IMG/VR virus record: IMGVR_UViG_3300045970_001343
Coordinates: 1 to 38,730 of that record
Reading direction: 5' to 3' (one strand)
DNA from: a virus
Length of the DNA: 38,730 nt
Both the position numbers and the translations under genes were made by a program. A model generated the notes under the pieces. It did not search any database, had not been told where the DNA came from, and worked only from the letters and a program-made list of their open reading frames with translations. Positions 26,908 to 38,730 of the stretch are shown here, piece by piece. The number at the start of each line of letters is the position of its first letter. Position 1 is the stretch's first letter.

Positions 26908-27052
26908 CTACCGCACCGCAATGAAAGGGGCGATGTTGCACGCAGCCTTCCAGTCCTTCGGACCCACTACTGCCAATCTTGCGTCTGGTAGTGCTTGCAG
27001 CACGGCGCGTTTGTTGCACCGTGAGCGTTTCTATTCGCTCAAAACGGGGCAT
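26908..27052 (-). pseudogene. possible frameshifted small gene after the primase
   Basis: An ATG at 27052 overlaps the end of the primase gene and starts MPRFERIETLTVQQTRRA. In that frame the sequence then becomes Ser/Arg/Gly-rich and runs to 26876. In another frame from about 27000 it reads LQALPDARLAVVGPKDWKAA and stops at 26908, which looks more like a real protein. A single-base change would join the two into a 48-residue protein. It may be a broken gene, a sequencing error, or an intact 58-aa gene (26876-27052). Confidence 0.3.
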
Positions 27053-29795
27053 CGTCACCATCCTGTATTGTTGGTTCAATCGGGGCTGCAGCGGCCGCTG
27101 TGGGCGCTGCACTCATGTCCTGGACATCATCTACCGGGGGCCAGTCCACCGGGCGCTCATAGCCCCATGCACGCGCCCCGTTGACTTGTTTCTTGATACG
27201 CTTCCAGCCCTGATGGTCAAGCCAGCCACGGATCTGAGCCTCTAGCCCTGCCGTGCTCTTTGCAGCATCCACACCCAGCGCCAAGGCCAGCTGCGCAATC
27301 GTGACAAAGTTGGTCAGCTCATTGACCATCGCGCCGATCAATGTGGCAGAGGGACTGCGCGTTAACACATGCTGCAACTCACTGACTACCGCAGTCTCCT
27401 GCAAACGGCTTTCCTGCATCGGCACAAACAGCCGGCGCTCCTGGTCTGGCGTTGGCGTGTACTGCAAATGGGGATCTTGTTGGCACAAGTGATATGCCTC
27501 AGCCATCAGTTGATCACGGTACTTTTGCACCCATTCTGTATTGATCATGTAGCGAACAGGAATAGGCAAAAACCGCCGGTTGCCAGTACGGTCTCGCAGA
27601 TACGTATTTTCATTGGTTGTTCCCACCAGCACGCACTGTCGTGGATATGCGCCCACAGTGGTTCCATAAGCCACCCGGTAGCGGTCCACCTTAGAGCTGA
27701 TAAAGCCCTTGATGGCCCCGACCTCCGCTTTATTGAAATTGCTCAATTCGGCAATCTCGTAAAGCCACACGCCCTGCACTTGTTCTTGGGCTTCTTTGCC
27801 GTGGCCAATTTCAAACGGTGTATCGCTGTAAAACTTGCCACCGGCCAGCAGCTCGACTAATGTGGATTTTCGTAGACCGCCCACACCCTCCAGCACCGGG
27901 CAATAGTCAAACTTGCAGCCCGGCTCCAGTGCGCGCTTGATCATGCCCAGCACCCAATACCGCCCGACCAGCTGCAAGTATTCGACCATGGCCGGGAGCA
28001 AGGTTGCGGGCTGGGTCACACCGTCTGCATCAACCCATTCAGCAGGCTTTTCACCCATGGCGAAGATCAGCCACTTATCAAGGCGCAATTTGCCGTCCCA
28101 TTCAAGCCCCTGCAGATACTCACGTATCGGGTGAAAGCGCCGCGTGTGTGCCACCGTTTGGATTGCCTCAATCAATGCGGCCCTGGGGATGCTTGGCAAG
28201 CCGTATTTGTCTGACAAGTACTTACCCAGCATCAGGTCAACGGCATCAGTCACATCGCCAGCTGGTGCGTGTGGCCACGGCCATGCAGTGCGACTCTGCA
28301 CTGTGTTTGACAACTCGTTATAAGACAACACCCGTTTCAAATCCGCATCACGCTCAAGAATATGGATCACCATCTTGCGCGACGTGTTCCAGCGTTTTTT
28401 GGAATCATCAAAGTAATACGCCAACCAGTCCGGTATCGCCCGGCCATTGATCACTGACGTGCCGCAGTCGTCAGAATCCTCGCTCTCAGTGCCAACGGGG
28501 CTATCGATTTTTTTTCCCGCGATCGGTGTAGCCGGGTCGGACACAAGTGCCTGTGCTGTCGCAAAAAATGCCAGCACCCGCGCACCATCCCAACCATCGG
28601 TGGTGATGGCATCGGCGCAGTCCCAACCATCAGACACCACCATCGGCTCAGGAATGGGCAGCATCGACACCTTGCAGCTCTGCGTGTCACGCAGCATGGC
28701 ACCAATGCCCAACATCGCTTTCATGCCCGGCTGCTTGGCCGCTGGAAGCAATGGCTTGGCAGCTTGCGCAATGTCCCGCGCAGCATCATCGGCACAGGCT
28801 TCGCGCTCGGCCTTGGTCAAAGGCACCCGGTGCGCATCGCAATCTGCCCACAGCAGCACATCCGTGCCAGCCAGGGGCAACCAGTCAGCCTTGGGCCAGC
28901 TATTGCAGCCACCAGACCACGAGGCCACCACATACACACCAGGCATGAACGCCTGCAGCAAATCATGCAGGATGCTGGCTTTTCTTTCACCCTCTACCAA
29001 CACCACCGTTGGCACAGAGCCGTCCGCACCACCAGCCGCCAGGGGCGATGCGCCACCCGGCAAATACAGAGGACGCGGATCGTCCCATTGTTTCCAATGC
29101 CACTTGTACGCGCCGTCTTTGGCACTCAGGCACCAGGTGTAGGGCAATGTTTCTTTTTTGCCGCTGCTGGTTATAAAGCGCACCACATAGCCAGCCAGCT
29201 TTCCATCAATCACATACTTGGCAAGGTGATCAATAGGGTCTTTGTTGGTTTCGCAGTTGCGGTATGGGTGCCAAAACGTGGGCTCAGGCGCAAAGTCCGG
29301 CACCGGCACCACCGTCGTCCACCCTTCACTCATCCGGGGCTTTGCTGCAGCCACCTGGGGCGCGGGGGGTGTCGGGCTTGCCAAAGGTTGCACGGTGCCA
29401 TTGGCCTTGCGCACACCCGCCACATCTTCAAGGCCCAGCTCCTGCGCAAGCTGCACAGCTGCTTTGCCCATGCTCAAACCATGAATCGCGGCGTAAAGCC
29501 CCACAAGGTCACCACCCTGCTCATCGCCGCCATGATCGCGCCACATGCCAGCTTTGGCACCTGACATCTTGACACTCAGGCTGGGCGTTTTTTCACTGCG
29601 CCAAATGCTGTGAACAAAATATTCACTGTTGCGCACCACACCGCCCGGAAGCCAAGCTGGCACCAGTTGGTCGATCCGACCCAGCAGAGCCTCACTAAGC
29701 GCGGAAAAGTTTATAGGAGGGAGATCATTAGAACCAGACAATTGCCCCCCCCCCAATGCGCCACTAATTGCGCACAGCAGCACCACACTGCCCAA
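27039..29795 (-). CDS. TOPRIM primase / VirE-type helicase replication protein
   Basis: A protein of up to 918 aa combining primer synthesis and unwinding. The N-terminus has DQLVPAWLPGG and TPSLSVK, as in phage primases. A TOPRIM domain follows: VVLVEGERKASIL with the catalytic Glu (about 269) and VLLWADCDAH with the metal-binding D-x-D (318-320). The C-terminal half is a VirE/D5-type ATPase: LEGVGGLRKSTLVELL (Walker A near 637-645, with Arg where Gly is usual before the Lys), VWLYEIAELS (Walker B), then LVGTTNENTYLRDRTGNRRFLPI. The start is unclear. The listed TTG has no ribosome site, and a run of ten G follows that may hide the true ATG at 29808. Confidence 0.9.
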   Translation of the reverse strand: MGSVVLLCAISGALGGGQLSGSNDLPPINFSALSEALLGRIDQLVPAWLPGGVVRNSEYFVHSIWRSEKTPSLSVKMSGAKAGMWRDHGGDEQGGDLVGLYAAIHGLSMGKAAVQLAQELGLEDVAGVRKANGTVQPLASPTPPAPQVAAAKPRMSEGWTTVVPVPDFAPEPTFWHPYRNCETNKDPIDHLAKYVIDGKLAGYVVRFITSSGKKETLPYTWCLSAKDGAYKWHWKQWDDPRPLYLPGGASPLAAGGADGSVPTVVLVEGERKASILHDLLQAFMPGVYVVASWSGGCNSWPKADWLPLAGTDVLLWADCDAHRVPLTKAEREACADDAARDIAQAAKPLLPAAKQPGMKAMLGIGAMLRDTQSCKVSMLPIPEPMVVSDGWDCADAITTDGWDGARVLAFFATAQALVSDPATPIAGKKIDSPVGTESEDSDDCGTSVINGRAIPDWLAYYFDDSKKRWNTSRKMVIHILERDADLKRVLSYNELSNTVQSRTAWPWPHAPAGDVTDAVDLMLGKYLSDKYGLPSIPRAALIEAIQTVAHTRRFHPIREYLQGLEWDGKLRLDKWLIFAMGEKPAEWVDADGVTQPATLLPAMVEYLQLVGRYWVLGMIKRALEPGCKFDYCPVLEGVGGLRKSTLVELLAGGKFYSDTPFEIGHGKEAQEQVQGVWLYEIAELSNFNKAEVGAIKGFISSKVDRYRVAYGTTVGAYPRQCVLVGTTNENTYLRDRTGNRRFLPIPVRYMINTEWVQKYRDQLMAEAYHLCQQDPHLQYTPTPDQERRLFVPMQESRLQETAVVSELQHVLTRSPSATLIGAMVNELTNFVTIAQLALALGVDAAKSTAGLEAQIRGWLDHQGWKRIKKQVNGARAWGYERPVDWPPVDDVQDMSAAPTAAAAAPIEPTIQDGDDAPF
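29745..29754. repeat. G10/C10 homopolymer at the start of the primase gene
   Basis: A run of ten C on the plus strand (ten G on the coding strand) lies near the 5' end of the primase frame. With one additional G, the ATG at 29808 would read straight into the primase frame; this ATG overlaps the upstream stop as ATGA, like most junctions here. With ten, that ATG runs to a stop after 32 residues. Confidence 0.8.
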
Positions 29796-29805
29796 ATGTT
29801 ATTGA

Positions 29806-30090
29806 TCATTTCCAGACGCGCATCAAGTTGGCCAGCGGCATCGCACCACAAGCATAGTCAGCCCGTGCATACACTGCTACCGGGCGTTTGGCCTCTGGCA
29901 CGCGCATCGAGTCAATCACTCTGATGTCACCCGCACACATTGCCCGGCGCAGTACCTGGTTAGAGTCAGTCAGCGGCCACCCCAACGAACGCGACATTTG
30001 CCCCATCGTGAAAGAAGGGTTCTGCTGTGTCCACGTATCCAGCATTTTACGCAGCTCACCACGTGGGCGACCACGCGTACCGATCGTCAT
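29806..30090 (-). CDS. small DNA-binding-type protein of the replication module
   Basis: A 94-aa basic protein. The start MTIGTRGRPRGELRKMLDTW is Arg-rich; then SFTMGQMSRSLGWPLTDSNQVLRRAM resembles a winged helix-turn-helix, followed by a strand pair (IRVIDSMRVPEAKRPVAVYA). Similar small proteins are often found before phage replication genes and may load helicase or act as regulators. It overlaps the CII-like gene by ATGA at its start. No family name is certain. Confidence 0.72.
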   Translation of the reverse strand: MTIGTRGRPRGELRKMLDTWTQQNPSFTMGQMSRSLGWPLTDSNQVLRRAMCAGDIRVIDSMRVPEAKRPVAVYARADYACGAMPLANLMRVWK

Positions 30091-30458
30091 GCACCACCAC
30101 CCATCAGTACACGCCTCAAAGCCGCGTTTTCCTCGCGCAGCTGGCGGTTAACCTTCTCAGTTTCACTCTCCAACTTACGCACAGAATGCAGGTCATAGCC
30201 ACGCTGGTGCAGCATCCACATCAGCGGCGCGTCATTGCCACAGGCATCCATCAGCTTGGAAAACTTAGGCCACACAATGCCCTCTTGGCCCGACGACCAG
30301 CGGCTGAATTGCGCCTTATCCACACCCAGGCGCTGCTGCAGTTCCTTGTCCAGGGCGAACCCGGCCAACTCAGCACACATCTGAATTGCGTCTCCCAAGC
30401 TGTGCTTGCGTGCCACCTCTTCAGGGCGAATATCTACAGGTAAGGCGACTTGGTTCAT
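30087..30458 (-). CDS. CII-like HTH regulator with C-terminal coiled coil
   Basis: A 123-aa protein. A Leu/Gln-rich HTH (LQQRLGVDKAQFSRWSSGQ), then PKFSKLMDACGNDAPLMWML and HQRGYD, ends with a heptad-like helix (LESETEKVNRQLREENAALR). This type is found downstream of Cro in Burkholderiales prophages. By position and by HTH plus oligomerisation helix it corresponds to CII, an activator of lysogeny genes, though it is not a close lambda CII relative. ATG at 30458 has GAGGG before it and overlaps the upstream stop by ATGA; the frame continues to a TTG four codons upstream. Confidence 0.72.
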   Translation of the reverse strand: MNQVALPVDIRPEEVARKHSLGDAIQMCAELAGFALDKELQQRLGVDKAQFSRWSSGQEGIVWPKFSKLMDACGNDAPLMWMLHQRGYDLHSVRKLESETEKVNRQLREENAALRRVLMGGGA

Positions 30459-30670
30459 AGACCCTCGCAACTTTGTTGAGAGCTGTTGTGTGGCTCAAAC
30501 GGACAAAAAAAACGACCATCGGTCGCATGAAAGAAAGCACCACCCACCGCACCCGCTGGCAAACTGCTGCGCACTGCATTCAAGCGCGCATCAATGGAAG
30601 CCAGGGAGGAGACCTCTGCAGAAAGACAGGCCAGACGGATATCGCGGTGGGTGGCTGTAAAAACCCGCAT
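30455..30670 (-). CDS. small early protein between Cro-like and CII-like genes
   Basis: A 71-aa protein (MRVFTATHRDIRLACLSAEV, ASIDARLNAVRSSLPAG, then FFHATDGRFFCPFEPHNS) with two central helices and an aromatic C-terminal half. No HTH or membrane segment. It starts 3 nt after the Cro-like stop and overlaps the CII-like start by ATGA, so it is a true member of the early leftward operon. Function unknown. Confidence 0.65.
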   Translation of the reverse strand: MRVFTATHRDIRLACLSAEVSSLASIDARLNAVRSSLPAGAVGGAFFHATDGRFFCPFEPHNSSQQSCEGL

Positions 30671-30673
30671 GTG

Positions 30674-30919
30674 CTATGCCTTTGCAGCTACAAGAGTAGT
30701 AGCGCTTTGCGGTTGATTTGCGGGGGCTGGAGCCAGTTCTGGCACTTGCATAACCTCATACAACCGGTTCAATGTGGCATAGCCGGGGTTGGTGATGTGG
30801 CCATTGACAAACTTGCTCAGCCACGAATAACTGACACCGGAATCGGCCACCACTCTGGGCCAATCGCCCTTTCGGGCTTTCAACAATTCAAGGACGCTTT
30901 GGTCAAGTTTGGTGTTCAT
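30674..30919 (-). CDS. Cro-like HTH repressor
   Basis: An 81-aa DNA-binding protein. Residues about 18-55 form a lambda-repressor-type HTH (DWPRVVADSGVSYSWLSKFVN, GHITNPGYATLNRLYEVM). It diverges from the larger repressor gene with only the operator region between them, which defines the immunity switch. Three in-frame ATGs exist (30931, 30928, 30919). The first two lie in the predicted -10 of its own promoter, so I chose 30919, which would put the ATG almost at the transcript start. The Ala/Pro-rich tail is probably flexible. Confidence 0.8.
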   Translation of the reverse strand: MNTKLDQSVLELLKARKGDWPRVVADSGVSYSWLSKFVNGHITNPGYATLNRLYEVMQVPELAPAPANQPQSATTLVAAKA

Positions 30920-30922
30920 GGG

Positions 30923-30950
30923 TTGCATCATAGTAAGGTTTTACTATGAA
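30923..30950 (+). promoter_or_regulatory. weak candidate promoter of the repressor gene
   Basis: TTGCAT (30923-30928) and TATGAA (30945-30950) with a 16-bp spacer. The spacer is filled by operator 1. Transcription would begin near 30957, downstream of the ATG at 30946, supporting the start at 30988 for the repressor. Match to consensus is poor, as is usual for maintenance promoters that need activation. Confidence 0.4.
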
Positions 30951-30955
30951 TGCAA
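30927..30955 (-). promoter_or_regulatory. candidate leftward early promoter (Cro-like operon)
   Basis: On the minus strand TTGCAT (30955-30950), a 17-bp spacer, then TATGAT (30932-30927; five of six match the -10 consensus). Operator 1 lies over the spacer and -10, and operator 2 over the -35 side. Predicted start near 30920, next to the Cro-like ATG at 30919. Confidence 0.6.
30932..30945. promoter_or_regulatory. repressor operator 1 (AGTAA-N4-TTACT)
   Basis: AGTAA-GGTT-TTACT. The symmetry extends to 8-bp arms (30929-30948), taking in the CAT/ATG of both divergent frames. It is one of four sites of the same form in the window. Confidence 0.8.
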
Positions 30956-30968
30956 GTAACACATTACT
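30955..30968. promoter_or_regulatory. repressor operator 2 (AGTAA-N4-TTACT)
   Basis: AGTAA-CACA-TTACT, exactly 23 bp from operator 1, about two helical turns, so two dimers would sit on the same DNA face. Confidence 0.75.
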
Positions 30969-30987
30969 ATTCGAAGCAAACACACTG

Positions 30988-31368
30988 ATGGACATGGAGA
31001 AAAAATCTATCAATGACGTGTTTGCTGAAAATCTGGCAGCTTTAATGCTGCGCAAAGATGTGAATCAGCCGACCTTGTCAGCTATGAGCAAAGTCAGCCA
31101 AAAGACAGTCAGCAATTATTTGAACCCAGGTCAAAGGGTCGTTGGATCCAACGGGAAGCAACCCTCAGCCAAATTAACTGAATTGGAAATGATTGCCACA
31201 GCGTTAGGCGTTGATCCGTGGCAATTGTTGAGGCCGCTGAACTCTGATCAACGGGCGGCTTACGAAGCCATTGAGGCCGCATTTAAGGCTCTCCAACCCA
31301 AAACAACACTACCCCCACCAGTCCTGGTTTCAAGCAAAAAGAAACCTAGATCAGCAAATGGAGCGTAG
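30988..31368 (+). CDS. CI-like HTH prophage repressor, short form
   Basis: The rightward repressor of the immunity switch, 126 aa from the chosen ATG (140 aa from the ATG at 30946, which lies inside operator 1). An XRE-type HTH spans about residues 10-70: INDVFAENLAALM, then QPTLSAMSKVSQKTVSNYLN with the recognition helix, an inserted loop (GQRVVGSNGKQPSAK) and LEMIATALGVDPWQLL. The C-terminal 45 residues are helical, then Lys/Pro-rich. No Ala-Gly cleavage site or S24 peptidase domain is present, unlike lambda CI, so SOS self-cleavage is not expected. A terminator follows. Confidence 0.8.
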   Translation: MDMEKKSINDVFAENLAALMLRKDVNQPTLSAMSKVSQKTVSNYLNPGQRVVGSNGKQPSAKLTELEMIATALGVDPWQLLRPLNSDQRAAYEAIEAAFKALQPKTTLPPPVLVSSKKKPRSANGA

Positions 31369-31414
31369 GTACATCAAAGCCGTTCAAACTTTACCTTGCG
31401 GTGAACAATCTGTG

Positions 31415-31436
31415 AATCCCCCAAATGGGGGATTTT
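31415..31436 (+). terminator. intrinsic terminator after the repressor gene
   Basis: AATCCCCC and GGGGGATT form an 8-bp stem with the loop AAAT, ending in TTTT. It separates the repressor transcript from the BRCT gene. Confidence 0.6.
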
Positions 31437-31510
31437 GAGAAAATAGAGCCACTCAGTGGTCACTTGATGCGTTGGAAACTGTATCAAAAAACTTCTAAGT
31501 AGGAAATGAC

Positions 31511-32140
31511 ATGAATTGGGACAACTCCCGCCGCCGAGAGATTGAGCAAATGATCGGCCTGGCCACAGGAATGATTGCCGATGGCGACTTGTCGGACATG
31601 GAAATCAAGTACTTAAGTACTTGGCTATCAGAACATCATGAAGTCACTACCGATTGGCCCGGCAGCGTGGTTGCGCATCTAGTGAAAGAAATATTGGCTG
31701 AAGGCACCATCAGTGAGAGTGGACGCACTAGGCTTATGAAGATGCTGACCGATTTGTCAGGCTCTGATTTCTCCGAGACCGGCTCTGTAACCACCAGCCC
31801 CATTGCACTACCGCTTGACGACAAGTGCACAATTTCTCTGCAAGATGCCCATGTTTGCCTCACGGGTGAATTTTTGTTTGGCCTGCGCTCAGTATGCGAA
31901 GCCCTGGCTGCAGAAGCGGGATCTATTGCGCACAATATCGTTACTAAAAAGATTGACTACTTGGTGATTGGGCACAACGTGTCGCCCAGTTGGGCGCACA
32001 CCTCCTATGGCCGAAAAATTGAACAAGCCGTTGCACTGCAAGCCAAAAGGCACCCCATAAAAATCATTTCAGAACAACGGTGGCTTGAAACAATCGCAGC
32101 TCAGTCTAAATCGCTGAAGACTGCTCCAGGCTTGGTTTAA
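31511..32140 (+). CDS. BRCT-domain protein with TerB-like N-terminus (cargo gene)
   Basis: A 209-aa protein. Residues 1-85 are helical with acidic residues (ATGMIADGDLSDMEIKYLS, EILAEGTISESGRTRLMKML), resembling TerB-type helical domains. Residues 108-195 form a BRCT domain like that of bacterial DNA ligase: AHVCLTGEFLFGLRSVCEAL, then IAHNIVTKKIDYLVIG and KIISEQRWLE, with the Gly and Trp positions conserved. BRCT domains bind DNA ends or phosphopeptides. The gene lies in a lower-G+C patch between repressor and early operon, behind its own ribosome site (AGGAAATGAC), so it is probably expressed in the lysogen as cargo. A defence or DNA-repair role is possible but unproven. Confidence 0.75.
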   Translation: MNWDNSRRREIEQMIGLATGMIADGDLSDMEIKYLSTWLSEHHEVTTDWPGSVVAHLVKEILAEGTISESGRTRLMKMLTDLSGSDFSETGSVTTSPIALPLDDKCTISLQDAHVCLTGEFLFGLRSVCEALAAEAGSIAHNIVTKKIDYLVIGHNVSPSWAHTSYGRKIEQAVALQAKRHPIKIISEQRWLETIAAQSKSLKTAPGLV

Positions 32141-32579
32141 CTAACTGCCATGCCATTAACCCCGATTTGCTTTCAGCAAGGTCAAATCCTCGCGCGGCCA
32201 CTGGCAACACGCCTGTTTGCAGCCACGTTGCCAGATCACTTTGCGTGGTCAGCCACCCAGATGTAGTTGTTTCTGGTGCGTGAAGATGCCCCTCAAACAC
32301 TTCAATTCCAAACAGGTCTTGTTCTATGCCAACTTGCAAAAAATGGGCAGGCTCCGTGCGATCATAAAAAACATAGCCCTGGCAAAAGTTGTAATCTGGC
32401 GGGGTCATATAAGCCCAACTTTGATACCTAACTTTTTTCACAACAAAAGTCTTCAACTCTAGGCCCAATGTCCAATAGTGATGCGGTTCAATGACAAAGT
32501 GCCATTGTGAAAAATACAACATCGGGTCGTCAATCTTGGTTGATTTCGCCTTCTTGGATATCTGATTTTCTGATTTCAA
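32106..32579 (-). CDS. unknown cargo protein convergent with the BRCT gene
   Basis: A 157-aa protein with a Lys/Ser-rich start and an aromatic-rich body (MLYFSQWHFVIEPHHYWTLG; YQSWAYMTPPDYNFCQGYVF; LQTGVLPVAARGFDL). No family recognised. The TTG at 32579 is preceded by AAGGA at a 9-nt distance and is preferred; an ATG at 32522 would shorten it by 19 residues and has no ribosome site. The last 35 bases overlap the end of the BRCT gene tail to tail. Lower G+C and position suggest acquired cargo, perhaps paired with the BRCT gene. Confidence 0.6.
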   Translation of the reverse strand: MKSENQISKKAKSTKIDDPMLYFSQWHFVIEPHHYWTLGLELKTFVVKKVRYQSWAYMTPPDYNFCQGYVFYDRTEPAHFLQVGIEQDLFGIEVFEGHLHAPETTTSGWLTTQSDLATWLQTGVLPVAARGFDLAESKSGLMAWQLVKPSLEQSSAI

Positions 32580-32644
32580 TTGAGGCCCATCCTTGGGTAT
32601 ATCCTATCTGATCGTGTGCAGCGTAGAACAATTTTCATAGTTGT

Positions 32645-32658
32645 AGTAATTATTTACT
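32645..32658. promoter_or_regulatory. repressor operator 3 (AGTAA-N4-TTACT)
   Basis: AGTAA-TTAT-TTACT, the same form as operators 1 and 2. It ends on the first base of the -35 box of the rightward early promoter. Confidence 0.75.
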
Positions 32659-32686
32659 TGACGGTCTAGTAAATTGTTACTAGACT
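32658..32686 (+). promoter_or_regulatory. rightward early promoter of the integrase operon
   Basis: TTGACG (32658-32663; five of six), a 17-bp spacer and TAGACT (32681-32686; four of six). Operator 4 fills the spacer and operator 3 abuts the -35, a layout expected to block polymerase when repressor is bound. Start predicted near 32692. Confidence 0.62.
32664..32685. promoter_or_regulatory. repressor operator 4 (extended AGTAA-N4-TTACT)
   Basis: Perfect 9-bp arms GTCTAGTAA and TTACTAGAC around ATTG. The core (32668-32681) is exactly 23 bp from operator 3, repeating the pitch of operators 1 and 2. Confidence 0.8.
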
Positions 32687-32688
32687 TC

Positions 32689-32723
32689 CACTCCAACCCG
32701 ACACCTCACGTCGGTTTGGAGTG
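32689..32723 (+). promoter_or_regulatory. leader hairpin covering the ribosome site of the first early gene
   Basis: CACTCCAACCCGAC pairs with GTCGGTTTGGAGTG, 13 of 14 positions, around a 7-nt loop. The 3' arm contains GGAG (32718-32721), the only Shine-Dalgarno for the ATG at 32728. The transcript start is predicted near 32692, so most of the stem would be at the 5' end of the mRNA. Confidence 0.6.
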
Positions 32724-32727
32724 AAAA

Positions 32728-32946
32728 ATGCCCCCACCCATCAGGAACATTGGCCCCGGAGAATATGCGCTGATTGCCGTGTTGACCCGCATCGTCATAG
32801 AGACGATGCACTTCAGCCCAGCGCCTCGGTACGACTCTGATAGTTTTTTACCCGAGCAGCTGCTCGAAGACGCACAGCGCGTTTTGAACGAATACGGGGC
32901 GCGTGTGCAGCCTGACCCGTCCATGATGGCAGGCGGTGCAGCATGA
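32728..32946 (+). CDS. first small protein of the rightward early operon
   Basis: A 72-aa protein (MPPPIRNIGPGEYALIAVLT, RIVIETMHFSPAPRYDSD, FLPEQLLEDAQRVLNEYGAR). It has two helices; the second is amphipathic. No HTH or membrane signature strong enough to name. It begins just after the leader hairpin and overlaps the next start by ATGA. As the first product after induction it could be a regulator or host-takeover protein (inference). Confidence 0.65.
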   Translation: MPPPIRNIGPGEYALIAVLTRIVIETMHFSPAPRYDSDSFLPEQLLEDAQRVLNEYGARVQPDPSMMAGGAA

Positions 32947-33230
32947 CCATGCACCGCATCACAAACTTGGCACTAGCCGCCCTCATTGCCCTGCTGCTGT
33001 CCTGCAGCTACTTGCTAGACCTGCCAAGTGACCTGCAAGAGATCACCGACGGTGCCATGGCATTGCAAGATGCCCAACAAGCCGCCAGCGCCGCCGTGCG
33101 CTTTGACCGCGCCGCACGGCAAATCTGCGGTGGAGAAAACGCCCAGTTTGACATCCTGGCCGATGGTGCCGTGCAGTGCCGTACCAAACGTGGGCGCAAG
33201 ACCATACAAATTGCGCAGGTGACGCCATGA
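32943..33230 (+). CDS. small exported or membrane-anchored protein, possible lipoprotein
   Basis: A 95-aa protein. The N-terminus (TMHRITNLALAALIALLLSC) is a signal-like stretch ending in LLLSC, a weak lipobox with the Cys at residue 21. The rest is a soluble Ala/Asp-rich helix (ITDGAMALQDAQQAASAAV) and a short basic end. A periplasmic lipoprotein or single-pass anchored protein is plausible, maybe for superinfection exclusion. It overlaps both neighbours by four bases. Confidence 0.62.
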   Translation: MTMHRITNLALAALIALLLSCSYLLDLPSDLQEITDGAMALQDAQQAASAAVRFDRAARQICGGENAQFDILADGAVQCRTKRGRKTIQIAQVTP

Positions 33231-33871
33231 TGTGCTGTGACGATTACGGCCGCTGCACCCAGGGTGCACATTGCGCCGCCCGTAAAACCGACGCTTGCGT
33301 GCCCGAGTGCACCAAGGCACCCCGCCCACCGTGGATGGACGGTGCGCTGCAAAACACCATACCTGCAGAGGCAGGCACCTGGCATGTGATCGACCCTGAT
33401 GATGCCCACGACCTGGCCAATCAGGATGGTGATGTGCTTTGGGTGCTTGTGCTGTTTATTGGCTTTTTTGTGCTTGGGCTGGCCATGATTTCGTTTGTCA
33501 TGGGTTATGGCTGGGTGTATCTGTTTGGCTTGTCGCTCCAAACCCCCACCAATCAACCGCTCATGGAGTACAGCGGCGTGCTGATCCAAGCCGCCGAGGC
33601 ACGCATGCGCGCCGATGGTCAGTCCGCCGCCATACCCGTGATCTGCATGGACATCGAGCTGGACAACTCGACGCACAACATCATGCACGTCGAGCAGCCC
33701 TTCCCGCCCGACCAGTACGACCAATCCCACGCGGCCGCACATCGCCTCAAAAAAGGCACCCACGTCACCGTGCAGGCCCCCCTGCTGGACTTGCGGCTTG
33801 TCGCCCGCAATGCCGCCCACATTCATGTCATCAAAAAACCCCAGGAGCAACCAACGTCATGCCAAGCGTAA
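33227..33871 (+). CDS. Cys-rich, membrane-spanning protein with OB-fold-like end
   Basis: A 214-aa protein of unusual build. Residues 3-28 hold six cysteines (MMCCDDYGRC, QGAHC, DACVPEC), a likely zinc-binding knot seen in other phage early proteins. Residues 68-102 form a strong membrane region (VLWVLVLFIGFFVLGLAMIS and on). Residues 115-205 have strands and a helix (VLIQAAEARMRADGQ, PVICMDIELD, AAAHRLKKGTHVTVQAPLL, LVARNAAHIHV) that recall single-stranded-DNA-binding OB-fold proteins of phages. ATG at 33227 is chosen for the ATGA overlap. It could be a real fusion of a membrane protein and an SSB-like protein; the call for the third part is tentative. Confidence 0.62.
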   Translation: MMCCDDYGRCTQGAHCAARKTDACVPECTKAPRPPWMDGALQNTIPAEAGTWHVIDPDDAHDLANQDGDVLWVLVLFIGFFVLGLAMISFVMGYGWVYLFGLSLQTPTNQPLMEYSGVLIQAAEARMRADGQSAAIPVICMDIELDNSTHNIMHVEQPFPPDQYDQSHAAAHRLKKGTHVTVQAPLLDLRLVARNAAHIHVIKKPQEQPTSCQA

Positions 33872-34140
33872 CCATCACCATCACCGACACGCCCTCTGGC
33901 GGTGTCTGCGTGCACAGCAACTACGTGCCCGCCATTGGCAAAAACACCAGCACGGCCCAGGCGGCTGCGTTGGACATCATCAACCGCACATGCCGCGAAT
34001 ACGGCCTGCCCAATCCGCTAAAAAGCGTCACCATGGCCCTGCGCGATGGCGTGGATATTGATGCGGTGCACCGTACGCGCGACAACGTGATCGCCGAATT
34101 GAAAAAGCTGCCTCCCATGGGGCCGGAGCGTGGCCGATGA
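33859..34140 (+). CDS. hypothetical early phage protein
   Basis: A 93-aa protein (MPSVTITITDTPSGGVCVHS, STAQAAALDIINRTCREYGL, then DAVHRTRDNVIAELKKL). A short beta start like those of phage proteins that read 'VTITDTPSGGV' is followed by two helices. The start is the ATG at 33859, within the tail of the previous gene; the frame is open much further upstream but that part is shadow. AGGAG lies 12 nt before. Probably a small DNA-associated protein of the recombination or replication type; function unknown. Confidence 0.7.
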   Translation: MPSVTITITDTPSGGVCVHSNYVPAIGKNTSTAQAAALDIINRTCREYGLPNPLKSVTMALRDGVDIDAVHRTRDNVIAELKKLPPMGPERGR

Positions 34141-34385
34141 ACCAAACCCGCCTTGGCTCCCTCATTGAGGCGCTGTTCAACGTGGCCATCGGCTTCGCCA
34201 TCAACTTCGTGGCCAACATGGTCATCCTGCCGCTGGTCGGGTTTCACATCACGGCCAGTCAAAACCTCTTCATTGGCGCGCTGTACACGGTCATCAGTGT
34301 GTGCCGCAGCTACATCATTCGCCGCTGGTTTAACCAGCGCCTGCATACCACCGCACAACGCCTTGCCGAAAGGGCCATAGCATGA
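34137..34385 (+). CDS. DUF7220-like small membrane protein
   Basis: An 82-aa protein. MNQTRLGSLIEALFNVAIGF is followed by a hydrophobic stretch (AINFVANMVILPLVGFHI), a second segment (LFIGALYTVISVCRSY) and RRWFNQRL, the pattern of DUF7220 phage membrane proteins (two segments, Arg-rich C-terminus). The role is unknown. It overlaps both neighbours by ATGA. Confidence 0.72.
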   Translation: MNQTRLGSLIEALFNVAIGFAINFVANMVILPLVGFHITASQNLFIGALYTVISVCRSYIIRRWFNQRLHTTAQRLAERAIA

Positions 34386-36460
34386 GCAATGAATTCGCAA
34401 ACATCGGGCTGGATCTGATCGCCAGCAGTCTGACTAACCCCCGCAAGAACTTCAACCAGGCAAAACTCGCAGAGCTGGCTGAAAGTATCAAAGCAGACGG
34501 AGTTCACCAGCCGGTGCTGGTGCGCCACATTCCGGCAGACCGCGTGCCCGACACCGATCGGCAAGTAATTTATGAACTTGTGTGCGGCGAGCGCCGTCTA
34601 CGTGCAAGCCGCATGGCCGGTGTGTCTACCATCCCCGCAATGATCCGCAACCTGACCGATGCCCAGGTGCTTGAGATCCAGATCATCGAAAACTTGCACC
34701 GTGATGACTTGACTGAGCTGGAGGAAGCTGAAGGCTACGAAGCCCTGATGCAGCATGCCAATATCACCGCCGACCAGGTAGGTGAAAAGATCAAAAAGAG
34801 CCGCAGCCATGTGTATGCCCGTCTCAAGCTGTTGGATCTGTGCACCGAGGCACGTGCCAGCCTGCGCGATGGCGACATCGATGCCAGCCGCGCACTGGTC
34901 GTGGCCCGCATCCCCGACCACAAGTTACAGATCAAGGCCATGAAGGAGATCGTCGCAGGCCAAGGCTACAGTTCGCCCCGCGAGCCCATGACCTACCGCC
35001 AGGCACTCGATCACGCGCAGCGCAACTACATGCTCAAGCTGAGCGATGCCAAGTTCAAGATCACCAGCGTGGATCTGGTGCCCGCTGCCGGCAGTTGCAA
35101 AACCTGCACCAAACGCACCGGCCATGCGCCCGATCTGTTCAGCGACGTGAAGGGTGCAGATGTCTGCATCGACCCGCCTTGTTTCCACAAAAAAGAAGAG
35201 GCCCACTCCGCTGCCATGGTGAAAGAAGCCAAGGACAAGGGCCAGACAGTCATTGCAGGAAAGGAAGCTCAGGAGCTACGGGCCCAAAACAGCTACTACG
35301 ATAAGTTTGTCGGGTACCGCCGCCTGGACAGCGTGGACGACAGCCCAACCGACCAGCCGCTGCGCAAACTCATTGGCCCGCTGATGAAGACCGAGGGCAT
35401 CAAGCCCGTGCTGATCGAGGGCACCCGCAACAAGGGTGAACTGGTGGAATGCCTGCCCAATGAAGTGGCGCTCAAGCTGCTCAAGATGGCCGAGCAACAG
35501 GCCGCTGCAGCCAGTCAGCAGACCACCAATGCGCCAAAAATCTCCAAGGAAGTTCAGAAGCTGGTGGATGAAAAAAAAGCCAAGGATGAGGCCAAGGCCA
35601 AGGCTCAGTACGAACAAGATTGGCGAGACCAACTGGTGCAGCGCACCTGGGATCTGATACAGCGATCTGAAGGCTTCACCGAAGACTTCAACACAGAAGT
35701 GCACCGCTACGTTGCGCTGCGAACCGCTCACAACCTGAGTTCTGACGACCTGGTTAAAGTTGCCCAGCTGCTTGGGCTAGGAAAAGTCGGAGCACACAGC
35801 GCAATACAAGATCACATCAAAATCAGCGAACAGCCCGACGTGATCCACCTGCTGATGATCATGGTCAAAGACAGCAGTGCCAACGACTTCAGCTACAGCG
35901 ATCGCATTGCCAACGAAGGCATGCACCTGGTCGCGGGCATTGTGCATGGCGGAGGGCTCAAATCCACACTCAAAGACCTCCAGGCCAACTCGCTGGCCAA
36001 GTTTTTCCCAAAAGTCAAAGTAGAAAAAGCAAAACCCACTAACGCCCCTGCTGCGCAAGCCAAGGGGAGCGGGGTGGGCAAAAAGCCCAAGACCACGGCT
36101 CAGGAAGCCAAAGCCCAAATCGCCGCCGCGATGCAAGCGCAAGAGGGAACCAATCCAGGCGCTGACGCGCCGGGCATCGTGGCCAACGACGTGATCCAGC
36201 CAGTAGCCCCGCCCGGTGCTAGCGCACCGACCGCGTCTCAGGCTGTGGGCGAGTTTGAGGTAGGCCAGCGAGTGCGCGTTACCACCGATGACAACAAGCT
36301 AGGCCCAATCGCTCGCAAGTGGAGCGGAAAAGAAGGCACCATAACCAGGCGCGAAGACGGTGGCGGCTACTGGTGCGTAACGTTCAAGGGCCGCAATGGC
36401 GGCATGGCCCTGTTTGCCGAGGATCAGATCGAGGTGGTTGCAGTGGCGGTGGCGGCATGA
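34382..36460 (+). CDS. ParB/RepB-like protein with Cys cluster and SH3/KOW-like end
   Basis: A 692-aa protein. Residues 5-110 are a ParB N-terminal domain: LTNPRKNFNQAKLAELAESI, CGERRLRA at 68-75 (CTP/phosphate-binding motif) and EIQIIENLHRDDL at 98-110. An HTH domain follows (NITADQVGEKIKKSRSHVYA, RLKLLDL). Residues 239-267 contain C-x2-C ... C-x4-C, a likely zinc site. A long Lys/Ala/Gln-rich helix spans about 380-425. Residues 635-690 are an SH3/KOW-like barrel (VGQRVRVTTDD, GKEGTITRREDGGGYWCVTF). There is no ParA in the window, so true partition is doubtful. A CTP-switch DNA clamp, regulator or nuclease-like role is possible. Confidence 0.85.
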   Translation: MSNEFANIGLDLIASSLTNPRKNFNQAKLAELAESIKADGVHQPVLVRHIPADRVPDTDRQVIYELVCGERRLRASRMAGVSTIPAMIRNLTDAQVLEIQIIENLHRDDLTELEEAEGYEALMQHANITADQVGEKIKKSRSHVYARLKLLDLCTEARASLRDGDIDASRALVVARIPDHKLQIKAMKEIVAGQGYSSPREPMTYRQALDHAQRNYMLKLSDAKFKITSVDLVPAAGSCKTCTKRTGHAPDLFSDVKGADVCIDPPCFHKKEEAHSAAMVKEAKDKGQTVIAGKEAQELRAQNSYYDKFVGYRRLDSVDDSPTDQPLRKLIGPLMKTEGIKPVLIEGTRNKGELVECLPNEVALKLLKMAEQQAAAASQQTTNAPKISKEVQKLVDEKKAKDEAKAKAQYEQDWRDQLVQRTWDLIQRSEGFTEDFNTEVHRYVALRTAHNLSSDDLVKVAQLLGLGKVGAHSAIQDHIKISEQPDVIHLLMIMVKDSSANDFSYSDRIANEGMHLVAGIVHGGGLKSTLKDLQANSLAKFFPKVKVEKAKPTNAPAAQAKGSGVGKKPKTTAQEAKAQIAAAMQAQEGTNPGADAPGIVANDVIQPVAPPGASAPTASQAVGEFEVGQRVRVTTDDNKLGPIARKWSGKEGTITRREDGGGYWCVTFKGRNGGMALFAEDQIEVVAVAVAA

Positions 36461-36957
36461 GCAAGAAAAACGGCAGACCCTACCGCCCACGCCCTGTAAC
36501 GGCTGACACCATGGCCGTGGCGCTACACCAGGCAGCCAAACCAGCAGACGCCTGCACTGAGCTCCTGGACAAACTCGCTGCTTGCCTCAAGGCGCTGCGC
36601 GAAGGTGTAGCCACCGAATATCAATGGAGTGTTGTATCAGGCAGCGTGGCACTGGCGCTGGCCATCGAGCAACGCGGCATTGTGCGCGGCCTGAAAGAAC
36701 ACCTGGTGAGCGCTGATTCGGCAATGGTGACCATCTACGATCGCGCACTTCGATCTGGTGGCGGCCGATGGGTGCACGTCACGCTGATGTATCAAGAGAT
36801 TGATGCATTGCATGCGTTTTTGAACCTGCACACGTTCCAAATACGCCAACTGGCCCGGTGCGAATTGTTGGAGGCCATTGCGGCCGCGCAAAAGGCAATA
36901 CGTGCCAAGGGTCACACCGTGACAGTGGAGCGTGAACAGGAAAGGATGGCAGCATGA
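36457..36957 (+). CDS. hypothetical helical phage protein
   Basis: A 166-aa largely helical protein (MSKKNGRPYRPRPVTADTMA, ELLDKLAACLKALREGVA, VSGSVALALAIEQRGIV, YQEIDALHAFLNLHTFQI, ELLEAIAAAQKAI) with a basic Pro-rich N-terminus. Proteins of this form occur in Burkholderiales prophages without assigned function. ATG at 36457 overlaps the ParB-like stop as ATGA. The frame is open upstream but that part is Arg/Gly-rich shadow. Confidence 0.72.
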   Translation: MSKKNGRPYRPRPVTADTMAVALHQAAKPADACTELLDKLAACLKALREGVATEYQWSVVSGSVALALAIEQRGIVRGLKEHLVSADSAMVTIYDRALRSGGGRWVHVTLMYQEIDALHAFLNLHTFQIRQLARCELLEAIAAAQKAIRAKGHTVTVEREQERMAA

Positions 36958-37280
36958 CCTTCCCCGCCGATCTGGCCAAGATGTACGTCAAACAGGCTGG
37001 GCAGCCCTACCAGCCCAGCAATGGCACTGAGGGCGATATCTTCATATCCGAGTGGTGCAGCAAGTGCGCCAAAGACAAAGCCATGCGTGAGGGCGAGCCT
37101 CTGGATGAATGCGATGACGATGAGGTCTGCCAGATCCTGGGCGCATCGTTTCGTGGTGAGGCCAAAGAGTGGGTGTACGGCCCTGATGGCCAGCCTATGT
37201 GCACCGCATTCCATGAGCCTGGCACACCCGAACCCTACCGCTGCCCGGCGACCCCCGACATGTTCGGATCCGTATCGTGA
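36954..37280 (+). CDS. small Cys-rich phage protein, probable zinc binding
   Basis: A 108-aa protein with the pattern EGDIFISEWCSKCAKDKAM, then ECDDDEVCQILGASF, EWVYGPDGQPMCTAF and a Pro-rich end with YRCP. The C-x2-C pair, the later Cys residues and the WxYxxDGxPxCTAF motif recur in many phage hypothetical proteins. A structural zinc site is likely; biological role unknown. Both ends overlap neighbours by four bases (ATGA, GTGA). Confidence 0.75.
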   Translation: MTFPADLAKMYVKQAGQPYQPSNGTEGDIFISEWCSKCAKDKAMREGEPLDECDDDEVCQILGASFRGEAKEWVYGPDGQPMCTAFHEPGTPEPYRCPATPDMFGSVS

Positions 37281-37678
37281 TTGCCAAACGTGGCCTGACC
37301 CACCAGGAAGCCATGGAATACGTGGGCGTCAAACGCCGCACCTTCGATGAAGTATGGCGGCCGCAGTTGGTGGCCATGCGTCAGGGTGCGTGCGTGGTGT
37401 TTGACCGGCTGGATCTGGACCGCCTGTTCGACCGCTTCAAACAAGAGGCATCCGGCCAGCCACAAGCGGCCAACGATTCGACAAGCCCGGCGTTCACGGC
37501 GCACAATGGCGGCCGGAACGAACGGCCCATCAAACCGAAAGGAGTACATATATGGGCCAAAACACACGGGGAATCTACCCCGAAGACAACGGGCTCTGGC
37601 AGGTTGACAAGTGGAAGCGAGGCACTCGATTTCGCCAGCGCGGTTTCGAGAGCTTTGACGAAGCGGAACGCTGGCTGA
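37277..37678 (+). CDS. xis: excisionase-like winged-helix protein
   Basis: A 133-aa protein starting at GTG (GTGA overlap). The first 55 residues (GLTHQEAMEYVGVKRRTFDE, VWRPQLVAMRQGACVVFDRL, DLDRLFDRF) match the excisionase / MerR-like HTH_17 plan: helix, turn, helix, a basic loop, a strand and 'D-x-D-x-L'. Such proteins bend DNA at attachment sites and set the direction of integrase. The C-terminal 45 residues are Ser/Thr/Gly-rich and read over the first 127 bases of the integrase gene in another frame. It is directly upstream of integrase, as expected. Confidence 0.72.
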   Translation: MIAKRGLTHQEAMEYVGVKRRTFDEVWRPQLVAMRQGACVVFDRLDLDRLFDRFKQEASGQPQAANDSTSPAFTAHNGGRNERPIKPKGVHIWAKTHGESTPKTTGSGRLTSGSEALDFASAVSRALTKRNAG

Positions 37679-38730
37679 TCACTCAGCTGGCCGACCAGCG
37701 GGAAGTGCTGGTGCATGGGCAGCGTGCCACATACACGTTTGACCAGGCATCGGCCCACTACATCAGTCTGCACGAGCAAAAGGCCTCTCTTGAAACCGAG
37801 ATATTCATGCTCACAAGCGTTATGCCCTATATCGGCAAGCTCGAACTGCACCAGGTGCATGATGGCTCGCTCGCGCCCTACCAGACCGCAAGGCTGGCAG
37901 ACGGCCGGGCGCACAAAACCATCAACCTAGCGCTGGGCGTAGTGCGCCGAATACTCAACCTGGCGGCCACCAGCTGGCGGGATGAGAGCGGCAAGACGTG
38001 GCTGGAGCAAGCGCCGAAGATCACATTGCTGCCCCTGGTTGGTCACCAGCGCGAACCGCGCCCGATCACCTGGGGAGAGCAACGCACCCTGCTACCCAAA
38101 CTGCCCGACCATCTGGCACGTATGTCGCTGTTCACCCTGAACACCGGCGTGCGTGACGATGTGGTCTGCAGCCTGCGGTGGGAATGGGAAATCAAGGTGC
38201 CCGAGCTGGGAATATCGGTGTTTGAGGTGCCACGTGAGCATGTCAAAGGGCGCAAAAAATCGCGGGTGGTGATCTGCAATAGTGTGGCGCAGTCGGTGAT
38301 CGAATCCGTGCGTGGCCAGCACAAGGACTTTGTCTTTGTCTACCGGCGCGAACGGGTAAAAAACACCGACCAAGCGCCCAAAATGCCTTACCGACGCATC
38401 GGGACCATGAACAACACCGCCTGGCAGACCGCACGCAAGGCCGCTGGCCTGGGCGATCTGCACGTGCACGACCTACGCCACACCATTGGCATGCGTCTGC
38501 GCGAGGCGGGTGTGGCTGAAAGCACCATCTCCGACATCCTGTGGCACAGCACCAAGACAATGACCCAGCATTACAGCGTGGCTCAGATCGTGGAGCTGCA
38601 CCAGGCGCTGGAGAAGGTGAAGGACGATGCAGGCCGGTGGAATAAGAGCCTGGCAACGCTCAAACGCGAGCAGGCGGGGGATTTCGGGGAGGCCACTCCC
38701 CCAAAAGTCCCCCAGGTGAAGGTAGCGTAG
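37552..38730 (+). CDS. int: phage tyrosine integrase
   Basis: A 392-aa site-specific recombinase. The N-terminal part (about 1-60) resembles an arm-binding domain; about 65-160 is the core-binding SAM-like domain. The catalytic domain has R201 in LNTGVRDDVVCSLRW, a Lys-rich hairpin (EHVKGRKKSRVV, proposed catalytic Lys near 232), H306-x2-R309 in VHDLRHTIGMRL, H332 in LWHST and nucleophile Y341 in MTQHYSVAQI. All expected residues are present, so it should be active. GGAG precedes the ATG by 8 bases. It reads out of the prophage, so attP-derived sequence is expected just beyond the window. Confidence 0.94.
   Translation: MGQNTRGIYPEDNGLWQVDKWKRGTRFRQRGFESFDEAERWLITQLADQREVLVHGQRATYTFDQASAHYISLHEQKASLETEIFMLTSVMPYIGKLELHQVHDGSLAPYQTARLADGRAHKTINLALGVVRRILNLAATSWRDESGKTWLEQAPKITLLPLVGHQREPRPITWGEQRTLLPKLPDHLARMSLFTLNTGVRDDVVCSLRWEWEIKVPELGISVFEVPREHVKGRKKSRVVICNSVAQSVIESVRGQHKDFVFVYRRERVKNTDQAPKMPYRRIGTMNNTAWQTARKAAGLGDLHVHDLRHTIGMRLREAGVAESTISDILWHSTKTMTQHYSVAQIVELHQALEKVKDDAGRWNKSLATLKREQAGDFGEATPPKVPQVKVA

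Follow-up and report, generated by a model that had tools for sequence, protein, structure and literature searches.

Two pairs of putative CI operators in a mirror-image lambda-type immunity region of a virus record and its relatives

In phage lambda, the divergent cI and cro genes have operators between them, a second operator cluster lies past cI at the second early promoter, and accessory genes occupy the interval between cI and this cluster. One operator covers the -35 element of a promoter and the next its spacer and -10 element. In the annotated lambda record, the operators have pitches of 23 and 24 bp in OR and of 24 and 20 bp in OL, with cI, rexA and rexB between the two clusters. Among further described systems, Gifsy-type lambdoid switches are induced by LexA-controlled antirepressors (PMC3121763), and the paper on the Bordetella avium phages vB_BaM-IFTN4/5/8 does not describe their operators and reports superinfection immunity as lacking (PMC10269795). 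Here, we analyse IMG/VR virus record IMGVR_UViG_3300045970_001343 at its full length of 38,730 bp (the window), which shares with lambda this gene arrangement, the placing of operators on the promoter elements and the pitch seen in OR. Four copies of the palindrome AGTAA-N4-TTACT, arranged in two pairs, are very probably the operators of a CI-like repressor in a mirror-image lambda-type immunity switch. Judged from sequence comparison, this wiring is shared by ~35 related phages and prophages.

The first-pass annotation of the window had reported four such sites in two pairs of 23-bp pitch that overlap predicted promoters. The four copies, starting at 30932, 30955, 32645 and 32668, are exact, and the record holds no other zero-mismatch copy; the reversed pattern, used as a control against the whole record, gave no match, and a tolerance of two mismatches added six scattered sites. 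The pitch is 23 bp in both pairs, with a gap of 9 bp between the sites, and at most sites the palindrome is longer by flanking T/A, as in CATAGTAA-GGTT-TTACTATG. The exact motif did not occur among 300 Markov-simulated windows of the same composition, and two pairs of equal pitch with any 5-bp half-site did not occur in 60 simulations. The promoter overlap holds at both pairs as well, by an automatic promoter scan for PL and by direct reading of the sequence for PR. The central features are as follows (HTH, helix-turn-helix).

30674-30919, minus strand: cro-like gene, 81 aa, with its ATG at 30919, 7 nt past the -10 (PHROG repressor, 4.3e-9; conserved site-to-ATG spacing)
30927-30955, minus strand: promoter PR for cro, TTGCAT-N17-TATGAT, overlapped by pair 1 (read from the sequence; register shared with relatives)
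30932-30945, no strand: operator OR-A, AGTAA-GGTT-TTACT, with its outermost base also the first of the PR -10 (motif scan, family alignment)
30955-30968, no strand: operator OR-B, AGTAA-CACA-TTACT, with its outermost base also the first of the PR -35 (motif scan, family alignment)
30981-30986, plus strand: candidate -10 of PRM, CACACT, 7 nt 5' of the cI ATG (most relatives have nAnnnT at this offset)
30994-31368, plus strand: cI-like repressor, 124 aa, HTH only (HTH_26, 2.7e-4; start at ATG 30994 by homology)
32645-32658, no strand: operator OL-A, AGTAA-TTAT-TTACT, its last base the first T of the PL -35 (scan, alignment)
32658-32686, plus strand: promoter PL, TTGACG-N17-TAGACT, overlapped by pair 2 (automatic promoter scan)
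32668-32681, no strand: operator OL-B, AGTAA-ATTG-TTACT, in the PL spacer, its last base the first T of the -10

Relatives were sought with the operators themselves. Among 2.9 million viral contigs, four stretches contain the exact AGTAA double site. One of them (L018) has a 23-bp pair flanked by homologues of cro and cI and, 2.06 kb from it, another pair with a pitch of 33; the other three (L019, L020, L021) have no cI/cro pair and were discarded as chance or unrelated repeats. When C or T was allowed at base 3, the double site was found at 26 loci in 84,980 species genomes; at 12 of these loci, which lie in 11 prophages, it is accompanied by a homologue of cro, of cI or of both. Hosts of these prophages include Variovorax, Pseudorhodoferax, Polaromonas, Advenella, Comamonas, two Bordetella, Gallionella and Methylobacter. 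Many unrelated copies, which would have spoken against operators, were found neither for the exact motif in the rest of the record nor for the double site (pitch 23-33) outside the prophage in the 11 host genomes of relatives (2.7-7.2 Mb); each of these genomes has two double sites, or a single one in the case of one fragment, and none has the reversed pattern. Integrase genes lie on the same strand, 5-14 kb downstream of OL, in G001, G002, G006, G009 and G011.

The same arrangement emerged from an operator-blind survey of 53 viral loci obtained with a Cro-motif protein search, some of which resemble copies of genome-scan loci (e.g. L068, L041). An OR pair is present at about 27-29 of the 53, with a pitch of 23 except at two loci, where it is 24, and it mostly ends 11-12 nt 5' of the cro ATG. 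Nearly all loci with an OR pair have one further pair, invariably on the cI side and mostly at pitch 23 or 24, and a control with reversed half-sites found one pair in 30 loci. At the 36 loci with a located OL, the distance between OR and OL is 506-3,417 bp (median ~1.7 kb). As single-protein queries, the window CI against the viral and genome collections and the window Cro against the viral collection gave no matches; relatives were reached instead via motif, alignment and ParB searches. PDB searches returned only general XRE-type HTH and other HTH-bearing proteins.

The surveys also touched loci of other kinds. L032, L035 and L048 carry tandem AGYAA-N4-TTRCT-like arrays of 23-bp pitch, with no adjoining cI/cro homologues found, and are probably unrelated repeats. 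L060, a Bordetella-genus prophage with a close CI, has apparently lost exactly one 23-bp operator unit upstream of its CI relative to IFTN4, and the PR -35 with it, an apparent natural operator deletion that perhaps locks the prophage.

The pitch is tied to the promoters. At PL, the final base of the first site doubles as the initial T of the -35 (TTRCT+TGAC), and that of the second site as the initial base of the -10, a register kept at 31 of the 36 loci; the other five have a pitch of 30-33. PR has the matching register on the opposite strand, in the window and in relatives. A 17-bp promoter spacer and 6 bp add up to the pitch of 23, and an 18-bp spacer and 6 bp to that of 24; promoter geometry is the best explanation of the spacing. 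The first-pass annotation had compared the sites with lambda operators spaced on one DNA face; lambda OR has a 23/24-bp pitch too, and lambda PR and PL have a similar register. A search rule follows, namely palindromes fused to the -35 and the -10 and hence at a pitch of 23/24 bp. The OL pitch is 24 in all 11 loci with long CIs (235-324 aa, S24-looking, with S24 confirmed in the three tested, L022, L069 and L087), and 23 in most loci with short CIs and in L076, with a 246-aa CI without S24. Shared ancestry may be the cause of this association of CI length with OL pitch.

The layout of the window is that of the lambda immunity region in mirror image, with replication genes on the side of cro, cargo in the cI-OL interval, and integration genes behind PL. 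The first pair lies between the divergent cI and cro genes over PR, and the second past cI at the second early promoter. The cro operon leads into CII-like and replication genes, and xis and int lie within the PL operon (ORF, open reading frame).

27039-30470, minus strand: PR operon past cro, with a CII-like regulator (30087-30461; weak match, E 0.0004-0.004), a small ORF and a VapE-type primase/helicase
30512-30526, minus strand: terminator-like hairpin between cro and the CII-like gene, at the position of lambda tR1 (consensus match; hairpin count in the region no higher than chance)
32728-38730, plus strand: PL operon of overlapping same-strand genes running on to the record end, with small ORFs and ParB-like (34382-36460), excisionase-like (37277-37678) and integrase (37552-38730) genes

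The cro ATG lies 6-7 nt past the -10 in most loci, and a weak -10 (nAnnnT) lies 6-7 nt 5' of the cI ATG, which itself follows OR-B by 24-26 nt in most relatives. From this spacing, both messages are probably leaderless.

From the computed sites, their layout and conservation, the register of pitch and promoter, and the co-variation described below, we infer the following scheme of binding, protein-site preference and repression. Dimers of the 124-aa CI on OR-A and OR-B would shut the leftward PR (cro, the CII-like gene and the VapE replication gene), and dimers on OL-A and OL-B would shut the rightward PL. The claim that the second pair controls the ParB, excisionase and integrase operon agrees with the position of this pair on PL. 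Within each pair, one dimer would abut the -35 and the other would lie over the spacer and reach the first -10 base, a placement that makes the pitch equal to the distance between the hexamers (23 = 17 + 6). OR-B also extends into the candidate cI promoter at its upstream end, and occupancy of OR-B could tune cI; Cro probably competes there. Induction would proceed by something other than CI self-cleavage. The interval between cI and OL is a cargo slot, comparable to the one of lambda rex.

Repression could also be cooperative, with CI tetramers on OR and OL forming a lambda-type loop across the 1.7-kb cargo, which we regard as possible but rather unlikely. Two distant clusters for one repressor, conserved at 0.5-3.4 kb, would suit a loop, and the lambda clusters lie 2.3 kb apart. 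The S24 domain is the source of lambda CI cooperativity. However, the window CI and about two thirds of the family (24 of 36 CIs, shorter than 170 aa) are too short for S24, yet the two-cluster layout persists. The AlphaFold (AF2) model of the window CI (predicted local distance difference test, pLDDT, 88.5), with HTH helices at residues 25-32 and 36-43, has a low-confidence C-terminal tail past helix 84-100. The occurrence of short and S24-bearing repressors in one two-cluster layout makes the need for looping testable.

Which protein reads the sites can be judged from the recognition helices, a comparison that the first-pass annotation had proposed. The half-site type is common to both pairs of a locus, being AGTAA in the window and L018 and AGCAA in most others. 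The recognition helix of the window CI (36-43 in the model) begins with Gln36-Lys37. The QKT form of this helix, in the window, L018 and L074, goes with T (or G) at base 3 of the half-site (AGTAA/AGGAA), and the QTT, QRT, QTS and QNT forms go with AGCAA. L063, which was identified by CI homology alone and comes from another host order, combines QKT with AGTAA sites, as predicted, and the CIs of L076 and L095 have Pro in place of Gln and the half-site CGCAA. The recognition helix of Cro is near identical (YSWLSKF) across AGTAA, AGCAA and ATCAC phages, L018 being different. Since the CI helix tracks the half-site and the Cro helix does not, CI is the likely reader of the operators. The earlier suggestion that the short repressor is the binder is thereby strengthened, and its wider reading, an immunity switch with shared operators, gains support from the family-wide conservation and from the co-variation of both pairs with the CI helix. 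That the sites are mainly Cro operators, with CI acting elsewhere or only partly via them, is improbable: cro genes flank the sites everywhere and a Cro search recovers them, but it is the CI helix that varies along with the half-site, the Cro helices staying near constant across half-site types. Both CI and Cro may bind. The natural series of CI helices with matching half-sites makes a DNA-recognition code testable, with K37 paired to T at base 3.

Several points weigh against the four sites being CI operators of this kind. The PR -35 is below the detection strength of the automatic promoter scan, and the promoter calls amount to consensus matches plus conserved register. The window CI is without the S24 self-cleavage/oligomerisation domain. 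The CI of L097 is without the conserved Gln and still has AGCAA sites, and the Fisher p of 1.8e-4 for the association of helix and half-site is overstated because the loci are phylogenetically non-independent. Several distant CI homologues found by hidden Markov model have no such sites.

Two loci show variations in the operators themselves. In L074, OR and OL both have AGTAA as outer and AGGAA as inner half-sites, arranged as mirror images, a hint that the subunits inside the symmetric pair are non-equivalent. L113 combines the usual Cro helix of the family with a different CI, and its operators are ATCAC-N4-GTGAT (OR pitch 23, OL pitch 30), an apparent CI replacement with operators changed to match.

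Because ParB, excisionase and integrase genes stand in the operon behind pair 2, we also considered that the sites are parS-like centromeres, or arm sites for Xis or Int proteins. This is very improbable. Sixteen phages with ParB proteins 39-82% identical to that of the window (L001-L016) have no AGTAA sites, although the layout is kept where the sequence is long enough; no ParB is annotated in Bordetella phage IFTN4, which carries four AGCAA sites; and the sites go with cI/cro rather than with ParB. For this lack of conservation with ParB, a parS role was rejected. That the quartet is a chance set of palindromes can be dismissed, since the half-sites are short and AT-rich but none arose in simulations and dozens of loci have sites at homologous positions, comparative data that refute it.

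The ParB relatives have operators of other types. In a de novo scan, 7 of 12 had two-pair quartets with other half-sites, and 20 shuffles of each had none; the types are TAGCG-N1 (L001, L014), ATCAC-N4 (L002), TACCT-N2 (L005, L009) and AACAC-N5 (L011, L015). A leader hairpin accompanies them all.

32690-32723, plus strand: leader hairpin directly 3' of PL, pairing the GGAG ribosome-binding site of the first gene (z -3.9)

All 16 ParB relatives have one copy of this hairpin, with any operator type, and two of its pairs show compensatory change. A covariance model built from ten members recovers held-out members (E 2e-10 to 0.035) and matches the window at 1.3e-15; among other loci, only L105, a CI/Cro locus, scores clearly. 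A search of the hairpin region against Rfam gave no match. That the hairpin is common to the entire CI/Cro family was rejected (p 0.19); it belongs to the ParB phage group. Translation control, antitermination and 5' stability are candidate roles. The leaders of L071 and L037 have boxA-like elements shortly past PL (CGCTCTTTAAC and TGTTCTTTAAAAA, respectively), a hint of antitermination in some members.

In relatives, the same slot thus contains operators of at least four other half-site types, and the one conserved leader hairpin follows each of them. We tentatively hypothesize, short of calling it probable, that the spacing rule is purely promoter geometry, that short dimers shut two operons without contacts or loops, and that the operator set is swappable.

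The cargo slot between cI and OL holds two genes in the window.

31511-32140, plus strand: BRCT-type protein, PHROG 3989
32106-32579, minus strand: ORF of no known family

The interval ranges from 47 to 2,963 bp, and its gene content differs in nearly every locus. Strong matches to candidate defence families occur in L046 (PDC-S42, 2.9e-90) and L080 (PDC-M18A, 1.2e-41), and the BRCT protein of the window has a weak one (PDC-S48, 3.3e-5). In the window and in L046, the BRCT-type gene is at the position of lambda rex; it is possibly an exclusion or defence gene. BRCT-type proteins of PHROG 3989 are also found in L046 (3060-3734), L002, L005, L013 and Vibrio phage K139, with unrelated repressors.

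Compared with lambda, the window has a different half-site, a 124-aa CI without S24, a cro message that is probably leaderless, and two operators per cluster versus the three expected for a lambda-type region. A third OR operator was rejected as a general feature; a degenerate copy adjoins OR-B in some Bordetella loci only. Leaderless cI and cro mRNAs, probable in the window, are a likeness to the immB switch of N15, phiKO2 and PY54, experimentally established in PY54 (PMC4488713); these linear plasmid prophages differ from the window in their proteins and operators, and PY54 has a single operator. With Gifsy-type prophages (PMC3121763), whose lambdoid immunity regions encode non-cleavable repressors of small size (136 aa), the window shares a short CI without cleavage domain. 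In the window, no exact LexA box was found, only scattered one-mismatch matches, and no antirepressor gene was identified. The Bordetella avium phages vB_BaM-IFTN4/5/8 (PMC10269795) encode homologues of both CI (47.7% across the HTH part) and Cro (44.6%). In IFTN4, cI and cro are likewise adjacent and divergent, and four AGCAA-N4-TTGCT operators form two pairs; it differs from the window in its 312-aa CI with S24 and its OL pitch of 24. The full-length CI and all four operators are present in IFTN4. The comparison maps the putative operators of this phage, and would extend the OR/OL design of lambda to a mostly betaproteobacterial phage group.
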